The position numbers and the translations under genes are program-made. Below are positions 52,332 through 64,000 of a stretch of DNA of 64,000 nt, piece after piece (the stretch's first letter is position 1; every line of letters begins with the position of its first letter). The notes below the pieces were generated by a model, which was not told where the DNA came from, did not search any database, and saw only the letters and a list, made by a program, of their open reading frames with translations. The stretch is taken from the NCBI RefSeq assembly GCF_013409365.1, contig NZ_JACCBA010000001.1, forward strand, positions 4,216,001-4,280,000. The letters run 5' to 3'. The stretch comes from Actinomadura luteofluorescens. Lineage in GTDB: Bacteria; Actinomycetota; Actinomycetes; Streptosporangiales; Streptosporangiaceae.

Positions 52332-52739
52332 CCAGCCTCCCGAATTTCGCCACCGCCACTGTAACCTCTGCACCGATCCGGGCCCCGGTCAGCATCCTCC
52401 TTTGCCGCCCCAGAGAGGGCCATGAATGGTCCAAGACCTGGTCAAAGGCCGGGTGGACGGGATTCGCGGCCATTTCTTACCGCCAAGTAAGTTTCTGTTC
52501 GGTAAGTTATTGCCCCGTTTAACGGATCTCCCGGGAGGCACCCGGATGCCCCGGGCGCATCGTCAGGTACAGTCGGGACCGGGGATCAGACGGGCGTCCG
52601 GGCCCGCGTTACGGTCCGGGTCACGGGCGGGCGACCTGGTCCTTTTCCCGGGAACTGCTTGGAATGCGGGCACGGGTGCGCAATCCTGAGGAGTCACCTG
52701 AGATGGCCGGGTACCGCCGGAGTGGGGCGTGAGGTGACG
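52332..52739. other. Divergent acyltransferase-STAS intergenic region
   Basis: About 400 bases with no gene. Contains an A/T-rich stretch with repeated gtaagtt (around 52489 and 52502), possibly a binding site, then a G/C-rich run with imperfect inverted repeats. A frame open across it starts poorly and lacks coding features. Confidence 0.5.
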
Positions 52740-53090
52740 ATGGACTTCGACATCAGCCTGATGCGCGACGACCGCTGCACGCTCGTCCGCGTGAAGGGCG
52801 ACATCGACGTGGTGTCCCGCGCGCGCTTCGAGGACGCGCTCTTCGAGGTCGTCGAGTCGGGCGAGCCGATGGTCGTCGACATGCGCGAGGTCACGTTCTG
52901 CGACTCCACCGGCCTGAACGCGATCGTCGCCGCCAACCGCCGCGCCGCCGAGCACGGCACGCACCTCGCGCTGGTGGCGCTGCCGCCGCGCGTCCAGCGG
53001 GTCTTCCGCATCACCGGGATCGACAAGTTCATCCCGATCCACGAGACGCTGCGGGAGGCCATCGTCGCCTTCCCCTCCACCACCCCGTAG
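52740..53090 (+). CDS. STAS-domain anti-sigma factor antagonist
   Basis: 116 aa, the size of SpoIIAA/RsbV. The phosphorylation motif FCDSTGLNAI places a Ser in the usual loop position, with LVRVKGDIDVVSRARFEDAL as first strand and helix. Such proteins bind an anti-sigma kinase when unphosphorylated and free a sigma factor. No kinase is adjacent. ATG at 52740. Convergent with the PknG operon; 23 bases separate the stops. Confidence 0.92.
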   Translation: MDFDISLMRDDRCTLVRVKGDIDVVSRARFEDALFEVVESGEPMVVDMREVTFCDSTGLNAIVAANRRAAEHGTHLALVALPPRVQRVFRITGIDKFIPIHETLREAIVAFPSTTP

Positions 53091-53113
53091 GGCCCGGGGC
53101 CGGCCCCGGCGGG

Positions 53114-53941
53114 TCAGGTGCAGCCCTCGAACTGGGGCACGCTCGTCGTCAGCTTGAGCCCCGACTTGCCGAACCACGTGTTCAGCAGCCGCTGGGCGGT
53201 GCCGTCCTGGTACATGTCCGTGATCGCACGGTTGACCTCCTCGCAGCCCTTCAGGTCCCCCTTCTTCAGGCCGACGCCGTACTTCTCGTCGGTGAACGGC
53301 GCGTTGATCATCCGTCCGGGGCGGCCGGTGGCGAACCCGGCGAGGATCAGGTCGTCGGTCGACACCGCGTCGAGCCTCCCGCCGGCGAGCGCGTCCATGC
53401 AGGCGCCGTAGGTGTCCACCGTGACCGGCTTCGCGGCCACCTTGCGCTCCTCGATCACGCGGCGCCAGGAGTTGGAGCCCTTCACCTCGCAGATCCGCTT
53501 GCCCTTGAGGTCCCGCACGTCCCTGATCGCGGCGGCGTCGGCGCGGACGAAGGTGTCCTGGTGGGCGACGTAGTACGGGCCCGCGAAGGTGACCTTCGAC
53601 TTGCGCTTCGCCGTGATCGAGTACGTCGCGACGATCATGTCGACGTCGCCCTTGGCGAGCGCGTCCTCGCGGACGGAGGAGTTCGTCGTCCTGAACGTCA
53701 GGCGGCTCTTCGGCACGCCCAGCCTGCCCGCGATGTAGGTCGCGACGTCGACGTCGAAGCCCTCGTAGGTCCCGTCCGGGCGCTTCACGCCGAGGGCCGG
53801 CTGGTCCTCCTTCACGCCGATGACGAGGGAGCCCCTGTCGGCGATGGACTGCTCCTCCTCGGCGCCGAGGCCGCAGGCCGACAGCAGCGCCGCCGCGGCG
53901 AGGACGGCCCCCGGGGCGGCGATGGCACGGGTCGCGCGCAT
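53114..53941 (-). CDS. glnH: GlnH-like amino-acid-binding lipoprotein
   Basis: 275 aa. Lipobox ALLSACGLG (Cys23), then a periplasmic binding fold for polar amino acids: SLVIGVKEDQPALGVKRPDGTYEGFDVDVATYIAG, VDMIVATYSITAKRKSKVTFAGPYY, and GVGLKKGDLKGCEEVN. Cys residues may form a disulphide. In mycobacteria GlnH passes an aspartate/glutamate signal through GlnX to PknG. No permease or ATPase gene follows, supporting a sensor role. Last gene of the operon; gap 29 bases from the upstream gene. Confidence 0.9.
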   Translation of the reverse strand: MRATRAIAAPGAVLAAAALLSACGLGAEEEQSIADRGSLVIGVKEDQPALGVKRPDGTYEGFDVDVATYIAGRLGVPKSRLTFRTTNSSVREDALAKGDVDMIVATYSITAKRKSKVTFAGPYYVAHQDTFVRADAAAIRDVRDLKGKRICEVKGSNSWRRVIEERKVAAKPVTVDTYGACMDALAGGRLDAVSTDDLILAGFATGRPGRMINAPFTDEKYGVGLKKGDLKGCEEVNRAITDMYQDGTAQRLLNTWFGKSGLKLTTSVPQFEGCT

Positions 53942-53970
53942 GGCTTGATCTCCTCGTCAGCGGAACTCGG

Positions 53971-55494
53971 TCAGCGGAACTCGGCCAGCCGGGGACGGAC
54001 CCCCGCGATGATCAGTGCGGCGATGACGACGGCGGCCACCGGCGGCACCGCGTTCCAGCCGCGCAGCCCGCCGTCGGCGTCCCTGATCGCCTTGTCGAAG
54101 GCGTCCTGGTGGACGGCGGTCAGCGAGCTCAGCGCCGCGTCGTAGGCGTCGAAGTCGCGGATCGCGTTGGACGTGCGGCCCATCCGCAGGTCGACCGCGC
54201 CCGCCCGGTTCCCCGCCGACGCCAGCTGCCGCATCCGCGCGTCGTTGCGCTGGACGGTCCGGTACGCCGCGAGCGTCCTGGCCAGCGCGTCGCCCTCCCG
54301 GCCCTTGTCCACCGTCCGCGCCTCGTCCCCGAAGAAGCCGAGGAACGGCGACGCCTGGCCGGGCCGGTACGCGCCGGCCTTCTCCTCCAGGCCCGCGTAG
54401 TAGTTCTCCAGGTTCACCGGCCGGTCGCCGAGGTCGGGGTAGATCACCGACAGCGACTTGTCGAGGTAGGTCTGCTCGTAGGTGTCGGCGCGGCCGGGGT
54501 CGAGGAGGTAGCGGCTCTCGTCCCCGAACGCGCTGTGGCTGATCGCGCGGGCCCGCGACAGCTGCAGGATCGAGTCGAAGCCGTCCTCCTTGGCGGTCCT
54601 GATGTGCCCCGCGTGGGCGGTGAGCAGGCCCGCCCCGACCGCGGTGAGGACGACCGTCCCGAGCGTCGCCAGCACCAGCGCCGGGTTCAGCACCCGCCGG
54701 AACGTCCGCACCAGGTACAACTGCGTCGCGACCAGGAGCAGCAGCGCGACCAGCCCGGTGAGGGCGACCCAGGTGCGCCCGGTCAGCACCGCGGACCGCT
54801 TCGTCTCGTACGACTGCCGGACGTTCGCGCCGGTGTCGAGCGTGATGTTGTACGCCTTCGGCAGCAGTTGCAGCTTCATCAGGTCGGTGGCCTGCCGGTA
54901 GGCGTCCAGGACCTGCGCCGGCGTCTCGCCGGGCGCGTGGTTCGACTGCGCGTCGAGCTGCATGGCCTGGCCGACGAGCCGCTCGTACTTGCCGAGGCCG
55001 TCCAGCACCTCCTGGACGGTCCGCCGCAGCGCCGGGTCGCGCCCGGCGAGCTGCGCGGCCTGCACCGCCGCCGCGTCGGCCTCCCCGCGGCGCTTCTCGT
55101 ACACGCGCAGGGTCTCGTCGTAGCCGATGCCGAGGCCGTGCTCGCGGCCGATCAGCAGGATGCTGGAGACCTGCGCGTCCATGTCGCTGAGCGCGAAGTA
55201 CAGCGTGCCGGTCGCGACGACCTGCGGACCGGCGTCGTGCCCGATCGTCTCGACGGAGTCGCGCGCGTTGCCGACGGCCACGGTGAGGACGGCCAGCAGC
55301 GCCACCAGCGCGGCCACGCAGAGCACGACATGCGCGCGGATGCGGCCCGGGATCGTCTTGAGCCATCTGCCGCGCACGAACGTCCTCAGCCGGCCGCCGC
55401 GCCCCGGGTCGGCGGGCGCCCTGTCCGGGGGCTGCGCGGGCGGCGCGGGCGGGCGCGGAGCGGGAGCCGCCGGCGGTGCGGGACTCATCGTCAT
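53971..55494 (-). CDS. glnX: GlnX-like four-helix membrane sensor
   Basis: 507 aa. A Pro-rich cytoplasmic N-terminus (1-55) precedes four membrane helices: about 55-75 (VVLCVAALVALLAVLTVAV), 245-267, 272-292 and near 480-500. The two large extracytoplasmic loops are helical. M. tuberculosis Rv0412c, the PknG-linked GlnX, has the same organisation and the same gene neighbours. The ATG at 55494 overlaps the FHA stop by four bases (ATGA). The stop lies within a 14-bp tandem duplication at 53957-53984. Confidence 0.82.
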   Translation of the reverse strand: MTMSPAPPAAPAPRPPAPPAQPPDRAPADPGRGGRLRTFVRGRWLKTIPGRIRAHVVLCVAALVALLAVLTVAVGNARDSVETIGHDAGPQVVATGTLYFALSDMDAQVSSILLIGREHGLGIGYDETLRVYEKRRGEADAAAVQAAQLAGRDPALRRTVQEVLDGLGKYERLVGQAMQLDAQSNHAPGETPAQVLDAYRQATDLMKLQLLPKAYNITLDTGANVRQSYETKRSAVLTGRTWVALTGLVALLLLVATQLYLVRTFRRVLNPALVLATLGTVVLTAVGAGLLTAHAGHIRTAKEDGFDSILQLSRARAISHSAFGDESRYLLDPGRADTYEQTYLDKSLSVIYPDLGDRPVNLENYYAGLEEKAGAYRPGQASPFLGFFGDEARTVDKGREGDALARTLAAYRTVQRNDARMRQLASAGNRAGAVDLRMGRTSNAIRDFDAYDAALSSLTAVHQDAFDKAIRDADGGLRGWNAVPPVAAVVIAALIIAGVRPRLAEFR

Positions 55495-56255
55495 GACGTG
55501 CCCTCCTGCAGGGACAGCGTGATGGTCGTCCAGGCGCCCACGTGGATGCGGTCGCCGTCACCGACCGGAACCGGCACGTTCACCGGGATCGGCTCCGTTC
55601 CGCCGTTCACCGTGGTGCCGTTGGTCGAACCGGGGTCGATCAGGTTCCAGGCGCCGTCCGGCCGCGCGAGCAGGACGGCGTGCAGATGCGAGACGCCCGG
55701 GTCCTCCGGCGGCGCGCCGAGGTCGATCTCGGGCAGCAGCGCGCGGGAGGCGCTGCGCCGCCCGATCCGGACCTGGCCGCCGAGCAGCGGGACGCGGCGC
55801 TCCGGGCAGTACGGCGGGAACGCGAGCCCGCCGCCGTCCGGTCCCATCTCCGCGACCACCGAGTCGAAGTAGGCGCGGTCGGCCATGACCAGCGCGTGCG
55901 GGCCGGGCGCCGGCACCGGCGCCGGGTGCGGGGCGACGGGCGCGCTGCCCTCCCGCTGCTGCGGCACCAGCGGCACCGCGTGCGCGGTGCCCGCCGGGGT
56001 GAACTCGACGGTGTAGACGGTGCCGGTCTCGAAGTCGTACCCGTCCTCCTCGCAGAAGCGGCCGGAGCGCGGCGTCCCGCAGTGCGGGCAGGCGGGCTCC
56101 TCCGCCGCCGCGGACTCGGCGGGCGGCGCGGGCACGGGCGGGGACGCGGGCGCGGGCTCGGCGAACTCGGCGCGCCGCGCGCCGTCCATGAGGTCGCCGC
56201 ACACGTCGCAGTAGTCGGTGGACTGCGACGTGTGCCCGCTCGGGCAGACCGGCAT
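55491..56255 (-). CDS. FHA-domain protein with N-terminal zinc ribbons
   Basis: 254 aa. Two zinc-ribbon-like stretches, CPSGHTSQSTDYCDVCG (Cys4, Cys16, Cys19, plus His8) and CPHCGTPRSGRFCEEDG, are followed by a Pro-rich linker. The FHA domain (about 160-254) carries IGRRSASRALLPEIDLG, DPGVSHLHAVL and IDPGSTNGTTVNG, the phosphothreonine-binding pattern. Unlike GarA/OdhI there is no ETTS-type N-terminal phosphosite. It likely reads phosphothreonines made by PknG. Confidence 0.92.
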   Translation of the reverse strand: MPVCPSGHTSQSTDYCDVCGDLMDGARRAEFAEPAPASPPVPAPPAESAAAEEPACPHCGTPRSGRFCEEDGYDFETGTVYTVEFTPAGTAHAVPLVPQQREGSAPVAPHPAPVPAPGPHALVMADRAYFDSVVAEMGPDGGGLAFPPYCPERRVPLLGGQVRIGRRSASRALLPEIDLGAPPEDPGVSHLHAVLLARPDGAWNLIDPGSTNGTTVNGGTEPIPVNVPVPVGDGDRIHVGAWTTITLSLQEGTS

Positions 56256-56260
56256 GGGCC

Positions 56261-57580
56261 TCAGCCCCCTGCCGCGTCGCCGTGCCGGGTTCGCACGGTC
56301 CGGACGGAGCGGGTGTCGAGCGACATCTCGTCGGCCTTCGCCACGTCCCGTTTCAGCCGCACGGTGCCGCGCGCCGGGTCGACCACGTCCACGACCTTGT
56401 CGAGCAGACTGGAGATCTGCTCGTTGCCGACCTCCCGCGCCAGCACCACGGCGCGCCCGAGCCGGGCGGTCGCGGTGTCCTCGTCGCCCTCCCGCCGCGC
56501 CTCCAGGCCCTGCTGGATCGCCTCGGCGAGCTCGGACTGCCCGGTGTGGTGCGCGACGCGGCCGTTGATGCGCGTCGACCTGGCCTCGTCGTCGGTCCAC
56601 TCGGCGATGACGTTGCCGGACGCGAGGACCTGGTCGCCCGCGACGAGCTTCACCCACGCGGCCCGCATCTGCCGGCCCACGTCGCCGGGCTGAACCTCCA
56701 CGCACAGGTGGTACTCGCGGTTCTCGTCGCCCCACGCTCCGAGCGGGTAGTCGCCGGTCTGCGGGCCCGACTCGCCCCGGCGGGCGGTGAGGTCCTCCAC
56801 GGCGGGGACCATCTGCTTGACGAACCGCAGCCGCGCCTGCTGCGGCGTCCACACGCGCAGCGTCACGTCCGCGACCTGCTTGCTCATCGCGGCCCGCGTC
56901 ATCGCCAGGAAGTCGGCCTCCAGGTCGGCCGGGTCGGGGACGTCCAGGAACCCGCCCAGCAGCACCGAGGTGATCTTGCGGAGCTCGGCGACGTTCCAGT
57001 CGGTGCCGACGCCGCGCGCGTCGCACAGGAAGCGGCCGGTGCACTGGCGCAGCGCGGCGTCCAGCTCCTCGTCGGACTCGTGCTGGTTCTTGCCGTCGGT
57101 GAGCAGGATCGCGTGCTTGACGGCGCCCGCCGCGACGGCGTCGTGCCCGGTGAACAGCCGGTCGGCGAGCCGCAGCCACGACCCGATCGCCGTCCCGCCG
57201 GCCGCCTCCAGCCGCCCCACCGCGTCCACCGCGCCGCGCCGGGACGCCGCGTCGGCCCGGACGAGCCGCTCCCCCTGCGGGTAGACCATCCGCGGCCGGT
57301 TCGCGCCCGCGACCACCGCGAAGTGCACGCCGTCGCGCAGCACGTTCACCGCCGCCCGCGCCGCCCGCTTCGCCGCCGCCATCTTGCCCCGGTACGACAT
57401 CGACCCGGAGGTGTCGATCATGATGATCTCCGCGGCGGGGGCGCGCCCGCCGTCCGCCGCCGGGCCCGGACCGCCGGACGCGCGCGCCTCCACCGAGACG
57501 ATCGCGTGCATCTCCCGCCCGCCGGCCGGGAGGTAGGGGTTCTGGTCCACCCGTACGGCGAACTCCGGAAAATCGCTCAT
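56261..57580 (-). CDS. VWA-domain protein
   Basis: 439 aa. Von Willebrand A domain (about 40-215) with intact MIDAS loop IMIDTSGSMS and second metal segment HAILLTDGKN. The C-terminal part is beta then helical (about 215-439), ending in a basic tail. VWA proteins bind proteins through metal ions and often act with AAA proteins or signalling complexes. No signal peptide, so cytoplasmic. ATG at 57580 overlaps the PP2C stop by four bases. Confidence 0.9.
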   Translation of the reverse strand: MSDFPEFAVRVDQNPYLPAGGREMHAIVSVEARASGGPGPAADGGRAPAAEIIMIDTSGSMSYRGKMAAAKRAARAAVNVLRDGVHFAVVAGANRPRMVYPQGERLVRADAASRRGAVDAVGRLEAAGGTAIGSWLRLADRLFTGHDAVAAGAVKHAILLTDGKNQHESDEELDAALRQCTGRFLCDARGVGTDWNVAELRKITSVLLGGFLDVPDPADLEADFLAMTRAAMSKQVADVTLRVWTPQQARLRFVKQMVPAVEDLTARRGESGPQTGDYPLGAWGDENREYHLCVEVQPGDVGRQMRAAWVKLVAGDQVLASGNVIAEWTDDEARSTRINGRVAHHTGQSELAEAIQQGLEARREGDEDTATARLGRAVVLAREVGNEQISSLLDKVVDVVDPARGTVRLKRDVAKADEMSLDTRSVRTVRTRHGDAAGG

Positions 57581-58701
57581 CTGCCCCGCTCCCTGCTCGG
57601 TCCTGGCGGCGGGTAGCGAAGGACCGCCACCGTCACGTTGTCGTGCCCTCCCGCGTCCAGCGCCGCCCGCACCAGCCGCCGCGCCGCGTCCAGCGGGCCG
57701 TCCCGGCCGGTGAGCGCCACGGCCGCGAGGTCGGACGGCTCCGGCAGGTCGTTCCACAGCCCGTCGCTGCACAGCACCACCAGCCCCGGGCCCGTCGGCC
57801 GGAACGCCGCCACGTGCGGGTCGAGCGGGCCCGCGTCGGCCCCCAGCCAGGCGGTCAGCACGTGCGCCCGCCGGTCGGCCCACGCCTCCTCGGCGCTCAT
57901 CGCACCCTGCTCGATCATGGACGAGGCCCACGAGTCGTCCGTGGTGAGCCGGCACGAGCCCGCCGGCGAGAGCCAGTAGGCGCGGCTGTCGCCGACCCAG
58001 CCGACGGTGATGCCGCCCGCGTCCACGACGGCCGACACGAACGTGCACGCCGGCGAGGAGTCGGGATCGCCGGGCAGCCCCGCCACGACCTCGCCCGCCC
58101 GCGCCGCCGCGTCGCGCATCGCGCCCCGCGGGTCGGCGCCGGCCGGGACCCGGCCCGTCAGCACGGCCAGCGCCGCCTCTGCGGCCAGCCGCGACGCCTC
58201 CTCCGACCCGGGCGCCGTCGCGACCCCGTCGCACACGACCGCGCACACGCCCGCGGGCAGTTCCGCCAGCGCGAACGCGTCCTCGTTCCGGCTGCGCCGC
58301 AGCCCGAGGTCGCTCACCGCCGCCCCGGACCGCCCGGCCTCGGCCTCGACGTGCTCCCGCCCGCTCGGCTGCCGGAGCCCGCACTGCTCGCAGTACCCGT
58401 CCGCCCCGACGGCGCCGACGCCGCAGTCCACGCAGGCGCCCCCCGCCGCGGTGCCCTCGCCCGGGTCGGCCTGGGGTGCGCTGGGCGGCTGCTCACGCTG
58501 GCGGGGGACCGGGTTGGGCGCGAACGGGGCCGCGCGGGAGGCCGGGGTCGGCGAGGCGTGCGGAAGGGCCGTGCCGAGCGGCGGGGTCCTGGGCGTGGTG
58601 GGGTCGGGGCGCCCGCACTCCTCGCAGAAGCGGTCGCGTTCGTTGACGGGCTCGCCGCAGGTGCGGCAGAGCGCGACGGGGGTGTGCTGATCCGCGTTCA
58701 T
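57577..58701 (-). CDS. PP2C-family protein phosphatase with zinc ribbons
   Basis: 374 aa. N-terminal CRTCGEPVNERDRFCEECG (Cys12, 15, 26, 29) and a second CVDCGVGAVGADGYCEQCG around residue 90, joined by a Pro-rich linker. PP2C core: SRNEDAFA, VVCDGVA, VGWVGDSRAYWL, VLCSDGLWND and GHDNVTVAVL, with all metal-binding Asp present. Removes Ser/Thr phosphates, probably from PknG or its targets. Three bases separate it from pknG. Confidence 0.94.
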   Translation of the reverse strand: MNADQHTPVALCRTCGEPVNERDRFCEECGRPDPTTPRTPPLGTALPHASPTPASRAAPFAPNPVPRQREQPPSAPQADPGEGTAAGGACVDCGVGAVGADGYCEQCGLRQPSGREHVEAEAGRSGAAVSDLGLRRSRNEDAFALAELPAGVCAVVCDGVATAPGSEEASRLAAEAALAVLTGRVPAGADPRGAMRDAAARAGEVVAGLPGDPDSSPACTFVSAVVDAGGITVGWVGDSRAYWLSPAGSCRLTTDDSWASSMIEQGAMSAEEAWADRRAHVLTAWLGADAGPLDPHVAAFRPTGPGLVVLCSDGLWNDLPEPSDLAAVALTGRDGPLDAARRLVRAALDAGGHDNVTVAVLRYPPPGPSRERGR

Positions 58702-58703
58702 GT

Positions 58704-61313
58704 TCAGAAGAGCGTCCTCGGGCGGACGGCGTTGGCCCGTTTGACCATCGCGTGGCGGTGCTCGGCGCCGTCGGCGAGCTTGGCGAGCACGCGGTAGACG
58801 TCCTCCAGCTTCTTGCGGAGGGCCTGCTCGTCCAGGTCGGTGCCGAGGATCTGCTGCCGGACGCCGGGCGGGGTCGTCCCCCGGTCGGCGCGGACCCAGG
58901 TCAGCGCCGCCTCCAGCACCTCGGCGGCGAACGCGGCCGACCGCTCGGTGTCCAGGCGCAGGGACGACAGCCGCCGTCCCGCCTCGACGAGCGCGGGCGC
59001 GTTCAGCTCGGCGCCCCCGCGCCCCCGCACGGCCGTGGCGACGGCGGCGAGCTGCGCGGCGAGGTAGTGGCTGGAGATCCGCGGGACCGAGTCGAGGACG
59101 CGTTCGGCGGACGCCCGGTCGCCCGCCGCGAGCCGAGTTCGGGCCAGCCCGAACGCCGCGCTGACGTGGGTGGGATCGGTCCGCCAGACCGTCTCGTAGT
59201 AGTAGCCGGCGGCGGCCGTCTCGCCCAGGGTCTCGTGGCAGAACGCCAGCGCGAGCTTGGGCGCCTGCTCGCCGGGCGCGAGGTCGTACAGGTCGTTGAA
59301 CACCGCGACGGCCTCGGTGCCGCGCCCGCCGGCGAGGGCCCGCGCGCCCCGGTACCAGTCGACGCGCCAGTCGTCCGGGGCCTCGGCGGCGATGTCCTCC
59401 AGGAGGTGCGCGGCGCCGTCGAGGTCGCCCAGCTCGATCCGGACGCGCACCAGCGCGAGCCGCACCTCGCGGGACGCGACCGGCGCGGACGCCAGCGCCG
59501 CGGCCAGGTCGGCGGGGTCGCGGGCGGTGAGCCCGGCGAGGAACGCGGCCGCCGGGTCGGAGGCGTACACCAGCGGGACGGGCAGCGCCGCCGCGGCGGC
59601 GGCCGGCTCCACCGGGGCCAGGATCGGCGCCGCCCCGCCGCTGCCCCGGGCGCCGTCCAGACCGCCGACGATCTCGGTTCCGGCCGTCTGCTGCTCCGGC
59701 CCGAACAGCGGGGACGGCGCGGGGCGCGGGCGCCCGTCCTCCGCCGACAGGACCTCCCGCAGCACGCCGGTGAGCTGCTCGGCCATCTCGGCGGCGCTCT
59801 GGAACCGGCGGGCCGGGTCGGGGTGCGTGGCCCGGCGCAGCAGCCGGTGGTAGGACTCGTGCCGCTGGAACAGCGGCACCTCCTCGCGCGGCGGCAGGCT
59901 GCGCAGGTGCCGCCCGGTGTAGCCGCGGAACGGGAAGCTCAGCACCGCCAGCGTGCGGCCGACGGTGTAGAGGTCGGAGCTGACCGAGGGGCCCTGCGAG
60001 CCGATCTCGGGGGCCTGGTAGCCGGGCGTGCCGAAGATCGGGCTGTCCGCGTCGAAGGCCCGCCGGACGCCGCCGAGGTCGATCAGCTTGAGCTGCTCCT
60101 CGGACTGGATCGCGTTGTCGGGCTTGAAGTCGCAGTACAGCAGCCCGACGCCGTGCAGGTAGCCGAGGGCGCTCAGCACCTCCAGGCCGTAGGCGATGAC
60201 CTGGCCGAGCGGCAGCGACGCCTGGTCGCCCTGCGCCTGGCGGGCGCTGAGCAGGATGTCCTTCAGCGAGCGGCCGCCGACGTACTCCATGACGATGTAG
60301 CCGGACTCGCCGTGCCGCACGAAGTTGTAGATCTTGACGATGTTCGGGTGCTCGACCTCGGCGAGGAACGCGCGCTCGGCGGTCGCGGCGGCGAGCGAGT
60401 CGGCGTCGCCGGTGTCGAGCAGGCCCTTGAGGACGACCCACCGCTCGCTCACGTTGTGGTCGCGCGCCAGGTACACCCAGCCGAGCCCGCCGTGGGCGAG
60501 GCAGCCGAGCACCTCGTACTGGCCGCCGATCATCTCGCCCGGCTGGAGCTTCGGGGTGAAGGAGAACGGGTGGCCGCAGTTGCGGCAGAAGCCCTCGGTG
60601 CGTCCCGGGCGGCCGCCCCGGCTGCGCCCGACCTTCTCGTCGCACTTGCTGCAGAAGCGCCGGTTCTCCGGCACCTCCGGATTCTCCATGATCGCCGAGG
60701 CGGGGTCGCGGGCCGGCACCGGCGGCACCTCGACGAGCCCCGCGCCGAGCATCCCGCGCCTGGCCGAGCCGCTGGAGCCCGTCCCCCGGGTGCCGCCGCG
60801 CGAGGCCGTCCGCCCGGACCCGACGCTGCCCGACCCGCTCGTCGGCGCGCTGCCGTACGAGGACCCCTGCCCGCTGCGCCCGCTCTGGCCGGACGACCCC
60901 GGCGGCATGCCCGCGGGAGGCGCGGGAGCCGCCGGAGTGGTCACCGGCGCCTGCCCGGGGGCGGCGGCCGGGGCCGAGCCCGGAGGCCGCCCGTATGCGC
61001 CGGGGTAGCCGGGCATCGCGGGCGCGGCCGGACGCACGGGCGCCGCCGTCCGGGCGGGCTGCGCCGGACCGCCCGGCGACGGGCCGATGGGCGCCGGACC
61101 GGTGTGCGACGGATTGATCGGCACTGCGGGATGGGACGGCGCCGGCTGGGACGCGGGCTGAGGCGCCGGCCGAGCCGCGGGGGGCGCTTGCTGGGGCGCC
61201 CGCTGCGAAGACGAGTTCGGTGGCGGTGCCACTGCGGGAGCCATGCCGCAGACGTCGCAGAAGCCGTCCGCCTCCACCTCGCCTGTGCAGCCGGGCTGGG
61301 TGCATCGGTTCAT
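58704..61313 (-). CDS. pknG: PknG-type serine/threonine protein kinase
   Basis: 869 aa. Zinc-ribbon-like N-terminus (Cys4, 9, 19, 22), a Pro/Ser/Gly linker, a rubredoxin-like pair (Cys221, 224, 243, 246), kinase domain (about 266-520) and C-terminal TPR helices to 869. The glycine loop LAHGGLGWVYLA, Lys296 in WVVLKGLL, CDFKPDN (Asp395, no Arg before it) and IDLGG in place of DFG are all PknG features. In mycobacteria PknG controls GarA and thus glutamate metabolism. The ATG at 61313 is fixed by the four-base overlap with the upstream gene. Confidence 0.96.
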   Translation of the reverse strand: MNRCTQPGCTGEVEADGFCDVCGMAPAVAPPPNSSSQRAPQQAPPAARPAPQPASQPAPSHPAVPINPSHTGPAPIGPSPGGPAQPARTAAPVRPAAPAMPGYPGAYGRPPGSAPAAAPGQAPVTTPAAPAPPAGMPPGSSGQSGRSGQGSSYGSAPTSGSGSVGSGRTASRGGTRGTGSSGSARRGMLGAGLVEVPPVPARDPASAIMENPEVPENRRFCSKCDEKVGRSRGGRPGRTEGFCRNCGHPFSFTPKLQPGEMIGGQYEVLGCLAHGGLGWVYLARDHNVSERWVVLKGLLDTGDADSLAAATAERAFLAEVEHPNIVKIYNFVRHGESGYIVMEYVGGRSLKDILLSARQAQGDQASLPLGQVIAYGLEVLSALGYLHGVGLLYCDFKPDNAIQSEEQLKLIDLGGVRRAFDADSPIFGTPGYQAPEIGSQGPSVSSDLYTVGRTLAVLSFPFRGYTGRHLRSLPPREEVPLFQRHESYHRLLRRATHPDPARRFQSAAEMAEQLTGVLREVLSAEDGRPRPAPSPLFGPEQQTAGTEIVGGLDGARGSGGAAPILAPVEPAAAAAALPVPLVYASDPAAAFLAGLTARDPADLAAALASAPVASREVRLALVRVRIELGDLDGAAHLLEDIAAEAPDDWRVDWYRGARALAGGRGTEAVAVFNDLYDLAPGEQAPKLALAFCHETLGETAAAGYYYETVWRTDPTHVSAAFGLARTRLAAGDRASAERVLDSVPRISSHYLAAQLAAVATAVRGRGGAELNAPALVEAGRRLSSLRLDTERSAAFAAEVLEAALTWVRADRGTTPPGVRQQILGTDLDEQALRKKLEDVYRVLAKLADGAEHRHAMVKRANAVRPRTLF

Positions 61314-62524
61314 CGCCGGGTCCCCGTCTCGCTCTCGCACGCCCTGATCGCTCGCTGGTACTCCGCCAGCACCGTGGTCGCCCTGCGCAGATCGCAGGGC
61401 GCCGTCCACAGCACCTCGCGCGCCTCCCCGTACAGCACGGTGAGCCGCTCGTCCTCGGCCAGGCCGAGCCGCGCGGCCTTCGCCCGGTACGCCTCCAGGC
61501 GCCCCCGCAGCTCACCCCGCCGGTCGAGCAGCCCGGCACTGAGACGCAGGTCACCGCGCGCCCGTTCCAGCGCCTCCTCGACGGCGTGCTCCAGCTCGGC
61601 GAAGCGTCCCGCCATCTCCACCCAGCGGCCGGCCTCGCGCAACCGTTCGAGGGCGGCGAGCCGGTCGCGCAGCGCTGCGCCGAGGCCCCGCGAGGGCTCC
61701 GGGAGGTTCGGGGAGTGGATCTTGTCGAGGGCCGTCGCGTGGGCGGCGTGGGCCCGCCGCTCCGTCTCCTCGACCTCCTCGACGGAGGCCGCGACCCGAG
61801 CCACGAGCTCCTCGTAGTCCTCGCGCATCCGGGCGACGCCGGCGAGTTCGTCGCCGAGCGAGGTCAGTATGGCGCAGACGCGGTCGAGGCGGGCGGTGTC
61901 GGCGTGGCCGTCCTTGACCAGCGACAGCGGGTCGGTGCGGACGAGCCGGCCGAGCGCGGTCAGCTCGCGGCCGACCCGGTCCAGCTCCGGATGCCGGGTG
62001 CCGTCGAGCGAGTGCGCCAGCCGCGCCGTCCGGCGCCAGCTCTCCTCGGCGTCCTCCAGCGGCTGGAGCAGCGCCGACCAGGCGGCGTCGGCGGCGGTGA
62101 TCTCGCCCGCGACGAACTCGTAGGCGTCCGACATCATCGCGACGGCCTCGTCCAGCGTGATGCGGCGCTCCTGCGGGCCGAGCAGCGTCCGGTGCTCCAG
62201 CGGGATCTGCCCGTCGGGCAGCTCCACCGACTGGCCCGACAGCAGGCCCGACAGCTCCATCAGCGCGGCCGGGTCGAGCCGGGGCGACCGCTCGCGCAGC
62301 TCGCCCGCCGCGTCCAGGACCCGCTGGTAGGCGTCGAACAGCCGCCACAGCGTCGCCAGCCGGGCCTGCGCAACGTCCCAGCGCCGCCACGTCTCGCCGG
62401 TGAGCCGGGCGCCCTTGAGCAGGCGGCCGCCGTCGTGGCGTTCCAGTTCGAGGAGGTTCGCGGCGATGCGGTCGCGCTCGTCCCGCAGCGTGCGCAGGGC
62501 ATGGTCGACGCCTTCACGGCTCAT
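61310..62524 (-). CDS. Coiled-coil protein, first gene of PknG operon
   Basis: 404 aa. Almost entirely helical with long E/R/L/A-rich heptad-like stretches, for example LRTLRDERDRIAANLLELERHD and VEEVEETERRAHAAHATAL. No catalytic motif, membrane segment or signal peptide. I do not recognise the family. The ATG at 62524 is preferred to a TTG at 62557. Its stop overlaps pknG by four bases (ATGA), so translation is coupled and the product is probably a scaffold or PknG partner. Confidence 0.8.
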   Translation of the reverse strand: MSREGVDHALRTLRDERDRIAANLLELERHDGGRLLKGARLTGETWRRWDVAQARLATLWRLFDAYQRVLDAAGELRERSPRLDPAALMELSGLLSGQSVELPDGQIPLEHRTLLGPQERRITLDEAVAMMSDAYEFVAGEITAADAAWSALLQPLEDAEESWRRTARLAHSLDGTRHPELDRVGRELTALGRLVRTDPLSLVKDGHADTARLDRVCAILTSLGDELAGVARMREDYEELVARVAASVEEVEETERRAHAAHATALDKIHSPNLPEPSRGLGAALRDRLAALERLREAGRWVEMAGRFAELEHAVEEALERARGDLRLSAGLLDRRGELRGRLEAYRAKAARLGLAEDERLTVLYGEAREVLWTAPCDLRRATTVLAEYQRAIRACESETGTRR

Positions 62525-62866
62525 GGGCGCGGCGGCCCCTGCCCCGCTCTGGTCCAACGTCTGCCCCGCGATCGTCTTCTCGGTCCCCCCTGAGCATGCC
62601 CGCAGAGCCGGTCTGGGAGCACGGACCGGTCCAGTATCGGACGTACGCTCTCATACAAGTGTGATCCGTGACACTAACCGAGACAAGGTGCTTTCCGTCT
62701 CGACAGGTCCGCGTCGCGGGACCGCCGCTCTCCGCTGATCCTCACGTGCCCGTACCCTGTGCAGGGGGAACCTCGTTGTCCCTGGTGACGTTACGACAGA
62801 TACGTCATTTAACGAGAGGAGTGGTGAGTCCGCGGTGTCGGACCCCAGTCATAGACCCGGTGCCCC
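62525..62866. promoter_or_regulatory. Divergent region between PknG operon and corC-like gene
   Basis: 342 bases. Holds a candidate SigR/SigH-type promoter at 62766-62792 for the forward gene and a leader peptide frame at 62835-62873. The PknG-operon promoter must lie between 62525 and about 62700; no clear hexamers found. Confidence 0.5.
62766..62792 (+). promoter_or_regulatory. SigR-like promoter gggaac-N18-gtt
   Basis: gggaac (62766-62771), 18-base spacer, gtt (62790-62792). The actinomycete thiol-stress sigma SigR/SigH uses ggaat/c-N18-gtt. It lies 75 bases before the corC-like start. Chance occurrence in such GC-rich DNA is possible. Confidence 0.5.
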
Positions 62867-62873
62867 ATGCTGA
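62835..62873 (+). CDS. Possible 12-codon leader ORF overlapping the corC-like start
   Basis: GTG at 62835 encodes MSDPSHRPGAPC and stops with TGA at 62871-62873, overlapping the downstream ATG (atgctga). The gagagga site at 62814-62820 serves this frame better than the downstream ATG, which has none. Translational coupling is inferred. Confidence 0.4.
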   Translation: MSDPSHRPGAPC

Positions 62874-64000
62874 GCGCGGCACTGGGAGTCCTCGCGGTGA
62901 TCGTCCTCACCGCCGCCACCGGATACTTCGTCGCCCAGGAGTTCGCCTACGTCGCCGCCGACCGCGCGACCCTGGAACAGGCCGCCGAACGGGGCGACAC
63001 CTCCGCCCGCAGAGCCCTCAAGGTCATCGGCAGGGTCTCCTTCATGCTGTCGGGCGCGCAGCTCGGCATCACGATGACGACCCTGGTCGTCGGCTTCATC
63101 GCCAAACCGGCCCTCGCCGAGCTGATCCAGCCGCTGCTGGGCCTGGTGGGCATCCCCGAAGGGGCGACAGGCGCGATCGCCCTCGCGACCGGCTTCGTCC
63201 TGGCGACGCTCATCCAGATGCTCCTCGGCGAGCTGTTCCCGAAGAACCTCGCCTTGGCCCGCGCCGAGCAACTGGCGCGCGTACTGGCCGCGTCCACGCT
63301 CGTCTACCTGACGGTCGCCGGGCCGCTGATCCGGCTGTTCGACCGCGCGGCGGAGCGGCTGCTGCGCGCCGTGGGCGTCGAGCCCGTCGAGGAGCTGCAC
63401 AGCGGCGCCACGCTCGAGGAGCTCGGCGACATCATCGGCAAGTCGCACAGCGCCGGGCACCTGCCCGCCGACCTGTCCGGCCTGCTCGACCGCGCCCTGT
63501 CGTTCGGCGACCTCACGGCCGACGAGGTCATGGTGCCGCGCCCGCACGTCCGCGCGCTCCCGGCGACCGCGCCGCTCGCCGACCTGGTCGCGCTGATCCG
63601 CGAGACCGGGCACAGCGCGTACCCCGTCTACGGGACGGAGGTCGACGACGTCGTCGGCGTCGCGGGCGTCCGCGAGGTCGCCGACGACGCGCTCGACCCG
63701 TCCACCCCGGTCGGGTCCGTCGCCCGGCCCGCGCTGCTGGTGCCCGGCAGCCAGCCGCTGTACGGCGTCATCGAGCACATGCGCGACTCCGGCGAGGAGT
63801 TCGCCTGCGTCGTGGACGAGTACGGCGGGCTCGCCGGCATCCTCACCTTCGAGGACGTCGCCGAGGAGCTCGTCGGGGAGATCGCCGACGAGACCGACGG
63901 CCCCGAGGACGCCCCGAAGTCCGGGCCCGACGGGTCCTGGCTGGTCGACGCCGGCATGCGCATCGACGAGGTCGGCCGCCTCACCGGCCTCGACCTGCCC
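62867..64000 (+). CDS. CorC/HlyC-family CNNM transporter, partial at window end
   Basis: 378 codons, truncated by the window edge. DUF21/CNNM membrane domain with helices at about 1-25, 55-80, 95-120 and 135-155, then a CBS pair (about 200-330: VMVPRPHVRALPATAPLADLV and EEFACVVDEYGGLAGILTFEDVAEELVGEI), and the start of a CorC_HlyC domain at the edge. Family members handle Mg2+/Co2+ or resistance functions. The ATG at 62867 is the only in-frame start after a stop at 62852. Divergent from the PknG operon. Confidence 0.93.
   Translation, partial: MLSAALGVLAVIVLTAATGYFVAQEFAYVAADRATLEQAAERGDTSARRALKVIGRVSFMLSGAQLGITMTTLVVGFIAKPALAELIQPLLGLVGIPEGATGAIALATGFVLATLIQMLLGELFPKNLALARAEQLARVLAASTLVYLTVAGPLIRLFDRAAERLLRAVGVEPVEELHSGATLEELGDIIGKSHSAGHLPADLSGLLDRALSFGDLTADEVMVPRPHVRALPATAPLADLVALIRETGHSAYPVYGTEVDDVVGVAGVREVADDALDPSTPVGSVARPALLVPGSQPLYGVIEHMRDSGEEFACVVDEYGGLAGILTFEDVAEELVGEIADETDGPEDAPKSGPDGSWLVDAGMRIDEVGRLTGLDLP

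Follow-up and report, generated by a model that had tools for sequence, protein, structure and literature searches.

Seven adjacent genes of Actinomadura luteofluorescens, located on the minus strand at 53114..62524 of the window (the whole stretch of 64,000 nucleotides that was analysed), form a conserved cluster that, with a probability of roughly one half, works as one nutrient switch, combining the kinase PknG with an ArnB-like VWA protein, an FHA protein, and a PP2C-type phosphatase. The gene facts are firm: the cluster is an enlarged, conserved version of the PknG system, whose core is likely an ArnAB-like pair. In the 5' to 3' direction, the genes encode a coiled-coil protein, PknG, PP2C, VWA, FHA, GlnX, and GlnH:

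61310..62524, minus strand: coiled-coil, all-helical protein of 404 amino acids, first gene of the cluster
58704..61313, minus strand: PknG-type Ser/Thr kinase of 869 amino acids
60546..60752, minus strand: rubredoxin-like domain of PknG (Pfam PknG_rubred)
57577..58701, minus strand: PP2C-type phosphatase of 374 amino acids (PP2C_2)
56261..57580, minus strand: VWA protein of 439 amino acids with ArnB-like architecture (VWA and VWA_3_C)
55491..56255, minus strand: zinc-ribbon FHA protein of 254 amino acids, candidate reader (FHA)
53971..55494, minus strand: GlnX membrane signal transducer of 507 amino acids (NF058618)
53114..53941, minus strand: GlnH solute-binding lipoprotein of 275 amino acids (SBP_bac_3; lipobox LLSAC)

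The gene junctions, read off the sequence, consist of 4-base ATGA overlaps (61313, 57580, and 55494) and of gaps of 2 bases between PknG and PP2C, 5 bases between VWA and FHA, and 29 bases between GlnX and GlnH. The seven reverse-strand genes and junctions given in a preliminary description of this DNA were thus borne out, and its family assignments hold. Upstream, the set is bordered by a CNNM/CBS gene that diverges from it (plus strand, from 62867), and downstream by a convergent STAS gene that ends near 53090. A scan of positions 52500-63300 retrieved no sigma-70-like promoters or terminators, a result that is uninformative either way in such GC-rich DNA; we infer that the seven genes are transcribed as one unit.

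Conservation was assessed through a census of 141 PknG-type loci, comprising the window, 60 stretches of approximately 20 kb from genome-search matches, and 80 named loci, with profiles for the seven proteins and with a run defined as genes on the same strand with fewer than 450 bases between profile matches. All seven genes were found in one such run in 74 of the 141 loci, and the window genome, which is a single contig of 9.6 Mb, contains a second complete seven-gene copy (L033; G000:C1:2114855-2134820), so that the arrangement is not due to chance. It is real and conserved, and occurs in two orders. The order of the window (CC-PknG-PP2C-VWA-FHA-GlnX-GlnH, with CC for the coiled-coil gene) was displayed by 36 of the complete runs and the order GlnX-GlnH-CC-PknG-PP2C-VWA-FHA by 38 (in two of which one gene was called twice), the latter order being that of Streptomyces, Kitasatospora, Wenjunlia, Phytohabitans, Saccharothrix, and Kibdelosporangium banguiense. 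Minimal GlnX-GlnH-PknG operons were present in 28 loci (18 contiguous and 10 with a larger gap), hosted by the mycobacteria-like family f4, Amycolatopsis, Prauserella, and relatives, and the other 39 loci were partial, cut by a contig end, or paralogs. PknG-PP2C-VWA-FHA was also retrieved in one locus from another class (L091), in a locus of family f8 (L092), and in six out of six further loci (families f113, f108, f90, f94, and f8), although in these six the coiled-coil gene was not found in three and GlnH not in one. Conservation of order beyond glnH-glnX-pknG, on which the preliminary description had made its proposal depend, was hence found across several families, and one genome from outside the class displayed it too. 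A metagenome bin named Amycolatopsis (Amycolatopsis sp. MAG RYN_118; L127) displayed the window-type order versus the minimal operon in the other Amycolatopsis loci, which may reflect mis-binning or transfer.

In a less biased sample, for which 295 genomes were taken evenly across the class, 71 genomes contained the VWA gene (E ≤ 1e-30) and 110 the TPR domain of PknG (E ≤ 1e-20). Thirty of these 110 belonged to the mycobacteria-like family f4, just one of them (G724) possessing VWA, against 69 of the 80 others. Seventy of the 71 VWA genomes contained PknG at the strict cut-off and the remaining one (G295) by a weaker match. Moreover, 76 of the 87 VWA genes were located on the same strand and at most 5 kb downstream of PknG, and at least four of the 11 others involve matches within about 700 bases of a contig start. 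Given this confinement to the PknG-bearing genomes of the sample and this adjacency, the VWA protein seems to be devoted to PknG. Within the order to which the Streptomyces-like family belongs, 225 of 245 genomes possess the VWA gene at E ≤ 1e-100. In G724, of the mycobacteria-like genus g4, an extra PknG-VWA pair (G724:C144:1035-4280) occurs beside the genome's own PknG, through either transfer or contamination.

The PknG tree, obtained by a quick search on kinase and TPR domains only, with 84 rows thinned from the 141 loci, places a minimal Pseudonocardiaceae-type group (13 rows) beside full rows of Kibdelosporangium banguiense, Saccharothrix, and an Amycolatopsis bin, which fits loss of the added genes in that group. 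Two Lentzea rows beside it keep only PP2C of the added genes, and the fork enclosing the minimal group, the full rows, and the Lentzea rows had a support of 87 and was not starred. The tree alone possibly fits gain as well as loss, as it does not separate the two; transfer is possible, and the mycobacteria-like group is left unplaced. The view that the extra genes were an addition built in here did not stand, as, by the census and the tree, the larger set is of wide occurrence, with minimal Pseudonocardiaceae-type operons branching among rows that possess it.

It had also been suggested that the cluster may be a complete module with its own eraser and reader. These genes are indeed present and conserved, but this picture is too tidy, as PP2C was lost or broken in loci of seven relatives, two of which lost FHA. 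Indeed, PP2C is gone in L039, L069, L110, L114, and L115 and broken up by other sequence in L034, all relatives of the window copy, and it is gone in L059 as well; FHA is gone in L110 and L114, both of which keep the VWA tail. Three of the genomes with a lost or broken PP2C (G475, G445, and G515) hold a second full copy (L035, L040, and L070). These losses speak against an invariable seven-part machine; the phosphatase and the reader can be dispensable or shared. Furthermore, five paralog clusters (L081, L083, L042, L045, and L064) contain PknG and VWA without PP2C, FHA, and GlnH, so that the PknG-VWA pair looks like the stable core.

The VWA protein is the ortholog of the solved structure 4fx5, a von Willebrand factor type A protein from Catenulispora acidiphila, the next-best structures being 8s05 (ArnB) and 5a8j (vWA2). 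The gene of 4FX5 itself sits in a PknG cluster of the same kind; no function is assigned to 4FX5 in the accessible portion of the open-licence literature. Both the model of the window protein and the solved ortholog consist of a vWA domain, a split beta-sandwich, and a helix bundle, and, judged from these structures, the VWA protein folds like archaeal ArnB. Of the two proteins that had been left unassigned, the VWA protein can therefore be assigned, whereas the coiled-coil protein is indeed without a family (no match in Pfam, NCBIfam, or PADLOC). The AlphaFold2 model of the latter is nearly all helix (mean pLDDT of 92.7), its gene accompanies PP2C, VWA, and FHA in 78 of the 87 loci that contain these three, and it would probably serve as a helical scaffold for PknG. 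Three segments of the VWA protein are relevant here:

57398..57415, minus strand: MIDAS motif DTSGSM, with Thr130 and Asp162 completing the site
56528..56557, minus strand: VAHHTGQSEL, residues 342-351 at the sandwich/bundle junction, candidate ribbon-docking site
56291..56320, minus strand: C-terminal tail LDTRSVRTVR with a conserved SxxT, candidate phospho-motif

The MIDAS is intact, D56, S58, S60, T130, and D162 being invariant. Residues 342-351 rank first among all 10-residue windows across 96 sequences (mean top-residue fraction of 0.89), and the beta1-beta2 loop, mapped to ArnB via secondary-structure order only, scores 0.72 versus 0.63 overall. If the secondary structures are matched in order, residues 342-351 would lie near the ribbon site of ArnA. 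In the tail, S425 and T428 are kept in 93 of the 96 sequences and R424 in 77, 4FX5 having Val where most VWA proteins have Arg; the three SxxT exceptions (L042, L045, and L064) are paralogs without FHA. A looser text pattern for the tail matched 91 of 100 VWA loci, two of them doubtfully (L042 and L083); on visual inspection, RSxxT is retained in four of the nine loci that it missed (Kibdelosporangium, Saccharothrix, and two Phytohabitans).

Zinc ribbons were retrieved in the kinase, the phosphatase, and the FHA protein:

61248..61304, minus strand: N-terminal zinc ribbon of PknG, Cx4C...Cx2C, residues 4-22 (sequence pattern)
58615..58668, minus strand: first zinc ribbon of PP2C, residues 12-29 (sequence pattern, below the Pfam cut-off)
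58381..58434, minus strand: second zinc ribbon of PP2C, residues 90-107 (sequence pattern)
56199..56246, minus strand: first ribbon of the FHA protein, Cx3H...Cx2C, with C4, H8, C16, and C19 invariant in 21 sequences
56043..56090, minus strand: second ribbon of the FHA protein, with C56, C59, and C68 invariant in 21 sequences

At the fourth position of the second FHA ribbon, the window and four near relatives have Asp. The N-terminal ribbon pattern of PknG was present in all 87 loci with PP2C, VWA, and FHA and in all 14 scorable partial loci (5 not scorable), versus 3 of the 33 scorable loci without any added gene (2 not scorable). Among the same 87 loci, PP2C carried two ribbon patterns in 77, one in 9, and none in 1. 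These patterns suggest that the zinc ribbons may act as the glue of a complex. On the tree, however, only three independent contrasts on starred branches were available for the correlation between ribbon and module, one of which agrees and two of which show no difference, which counts against tight coupling. The VWA tail is missing or altered in each of the five paralog loci that lack FHA. Four of these VWA proteins (L045, L064, L081, and L083) carry a C-terminal zinc ribbon of their own, FHA and PP2C being absent.

The remaining domains match known families. PknG contains the rubredoxin (PF16919; 101.5 bits, cut-off 28.5), kinase (PF00069; 98.5 bits, cut-off 31.7), and TPR (PF16918; 320.9 bits, cut-off 27) domains and matches the solved PknG 2pzi over residues 188-869 (E 5e-166); its catalytic lysine and HRD-like and DLG aspartates (K296, D395, N400, and D412) are invariant in 13 aligned PknGs. 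The phosphatase residues are likewise intact, the PP2C sequence containing the motifs RNED, CDG, SDG, and GHDNVT. In the FHA protein, the phosphothreonine pocket (R166, S189, H192, and N212) is invariant in 21 sequences. A possible identity of this FHA protein with GarA was rejected, the GarA match being just E 0.03 and ETTS being absent from its sequence. A separate GarA gene is present in the window genome (G000:C1:9358595-9359122; L094 and L188; E 9e-49). Its product carries at the N terminus a zinc ribbon that matches that of ArnA (E 1e-10 to 8s05_C), and ETTS is replaced by ESTSTIS; the presence of a ribbon on GarA does not track the added-gene module.

On the sensor side, GlnX matches NF058618, the GlnX family of NCBIfam (320.3 bits, cut-off 250), and GlnH matches GlnH of M. 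tuberculosis (Mtb; 6h1u, E 1e-30). Compared with the seven ligand contacts of the latter, as given in the available text of PMC6069109, Arg147, Thr162, Ser164, Arg169, and Asp250 are kept, and Trp232 and Lys161 are changed into Tyr and Ala, respectively. Arg147 is kept in 127 out of 127 aligned sequences. As far as these residues tell, GlnH would likely bind an acidic amino acid. The ligand pattern of the second copy (L033) is RASSRYD, one residue apart from RATSRYD in the window. At Mtb position 232, Trp occurs in all 20 minimal GlnX-first runs, Gln in 38 of the 43 GlnX-first runs with added genes, and Tyr in all 51 GlnX-last runs, possibly reflecting a shift of ligand preference.

Parts of the cluster recall known systems. 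Like GlnH-GlnX-PknG(-GarA/OdhI) of Mycobacterium and Corynebacterium, as far as described in the accessible text (PMC6069109, PMC9769921, and PMC8546545), it links in an operon a sensor lipoprotein, a GlnX transducer, and a PknG with rubredoxin and TPR domains, and the genome contains a GarA ortholog. Unlike that system, it contains four added genes (coiled-coil, PP2C, VWA, and FHA), an N-terminal zinc ribbon on PknG, a GarA with its own ribbon and ESTSTIS for ETTS, and Tyr for Trp at GlnH position 232. The available text of PMC6069109 reports, on the basis of STRING, a pknG operon conserved in Actinomycetales, its genes being named glnX, glnH, and pknG. No description of PP2C, VWA, and FHA genes with PknG was found in the accessible open-licence PMC text; an earlier print report may exist.

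The added genes rather resemble the ArnA-ArnB pair of Sulfolobus. According to the available text, ArnA, an FHA protein, recognises the C terminus of the vWA protein ArnB, where the phosphorylation sites lie; the two associate strongly in rich medium and no longer do so on starvation (PMC6509490). In the phosphate-free state, the N-terminal zinc ribbon of ArnA alone docks on the beta1-beta2 loop, the alpha5 linker, and the helix bundle of ArnB; phosphorylation by ArnC results in a tight, FHA-bound ArnA-ArnB state, which PP2A reportedly reverses (PMC12852372). As in the pair of S. acidocaldarius, the VWA protein combines a split beta-sandwich, a helix bundle, and an intact MIDAS, and the FHA protein has N-terminal ribbons followed by FHA, a likeness of architecture only, its sequence similarity to ArnA being weak. 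A kinase with a TPR-like stretch and a link to nutrients are shared too. In contrast with the archaeal system, the operon is bacterial, is clustered with a dedicated kinase, PP2C instead of PP2A, and an amino-acid receptor, and has no archaellum; its kinase and phosphatase carry ribbons too, and its VWA protein possesses a conserved SxxT tail, whereas in ArnB the threonines are distributed along an extended pair of helices.

The ArnB-like VWA protein, the ribbon-FHA layout, and the conserved SxxT together point to an ArnAB-like switch in bacteria that PknG and PP2C would operate. By analogy with the mycobacterial and corynebacterial work, GlnH and GlnX would switch PknG on when an acidic amino acid is present outside the cell. 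The tail of the VWA protein would be the target of the activated kinase, and the phosphate placed there would be recognised by the zinc-ribbon FHA protein and taken off again by PP2C. As in Sulfolobus ArnA-ArnB, the ribbons may dock at the sandwich/bundle junction, bringing kinase, phosphatase, and reader together on one hub, and phosphorylation may tighten a complex that is at first held loosely by the ribbons, the FHA domain then holding it. In addition, GarA, whose gene lies elsewhere in the genome, presumably remains a PknG substrate and hence a second output.

A rather unlikely alternative is that this output is the central one, PknG and PP2C setting GarA phosphorylation, with FHA and VWA merely tuning or localising PknG and with no phospho-switch on VWA. 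GarA/OdhI is an established PknG substrate, according to the available text of PMC6069109 and PMC9769921, and, besides its presence in the window genome, GarA was found in 57/57 and 20/20 genomes searched. However, many of these genomes contain GarA without the added genes, indicating that GarA does not need them. Moreover, conservation of the VWA protein is high (mean column identity of 64%, versus 54% for the coiled-coil protein and 34% for the FHA protein, PP2C not being aligned), and its restriction to PknG-bearing genomes of the sample and its SxxT tail also speak against a mere accessory role.

It is improbable that the added genes constitute a separate ArnAB-like regulator of another process, for instance development, merely co-transcribed with GlnX-GlnH-PknG. 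Such independence would agree with minimal operons functioning without them in mycobacteria and corynebacteria (available text of PMC6069109 and PMC9769921) and with PP2C and FHA being lost alone, but not with the PknG-VWA core kept in the five paralog clusters. Least credible is a TerY-P-type module for stress, metal, or phage response that shares its operon with an amino-acid sensor. The TerY-P triad, as given in the accessible text of PMC11090510, consists of VWA, PP2C, and a kinase with a zinc ribbon at its C terminus, and the kinase-PP2C-VWA trio matches this composition; yet it differs in its kinase, which is of the PknG family with an N-terminal ribbon, in its sensor partners, and in its VWA type, which has an ArnB/4fx5 fold and no match in the defence library or to a TerY-named Pfam family. 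Furthermore, no nuclease or Ter gene was found among the four flanking proteins scanned.

In the PknG literature found, as far as accessible, PknG is a lone kinase with GlnH, GlnX, and GarA, described in organisms with the minimal set only. Tentatively, PknG in most PknG-bearing non-mycobacterial actinomycetes may instead be the kinase of a bacterial ArnA-ArnB switch, in which a VWA hub holds kinase, phosphatase, and reader via matching ribbons and amino-acid sensing marks the hub tail, the mycobacterial three-gene operon being a stripped remnant. If so, the VWA protein would be the best-supported new candidate partner of PknG. The cluster also places the structure 4FX5 in a biological context and would allow the ArnAB mechanism to be examined in a bacterium, in tractable Streptomyces strains. 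It is likely an exception to the view, expressed in the available text of the 2026 ArnAB paper, that the ArnB architecture stands mostly outside multi-phosphorylation-dependent processes (PMC12852372). If a dedicated phosphatase, reader, and hub normally accompany PknG, views on how this kinase is regulated and what it phosphorylates in antibiotic-producing genera would need revision, and, if the bacterial ArnAB reading is true, an archaeon and antibiotic producers would share one nutrient-switch design.
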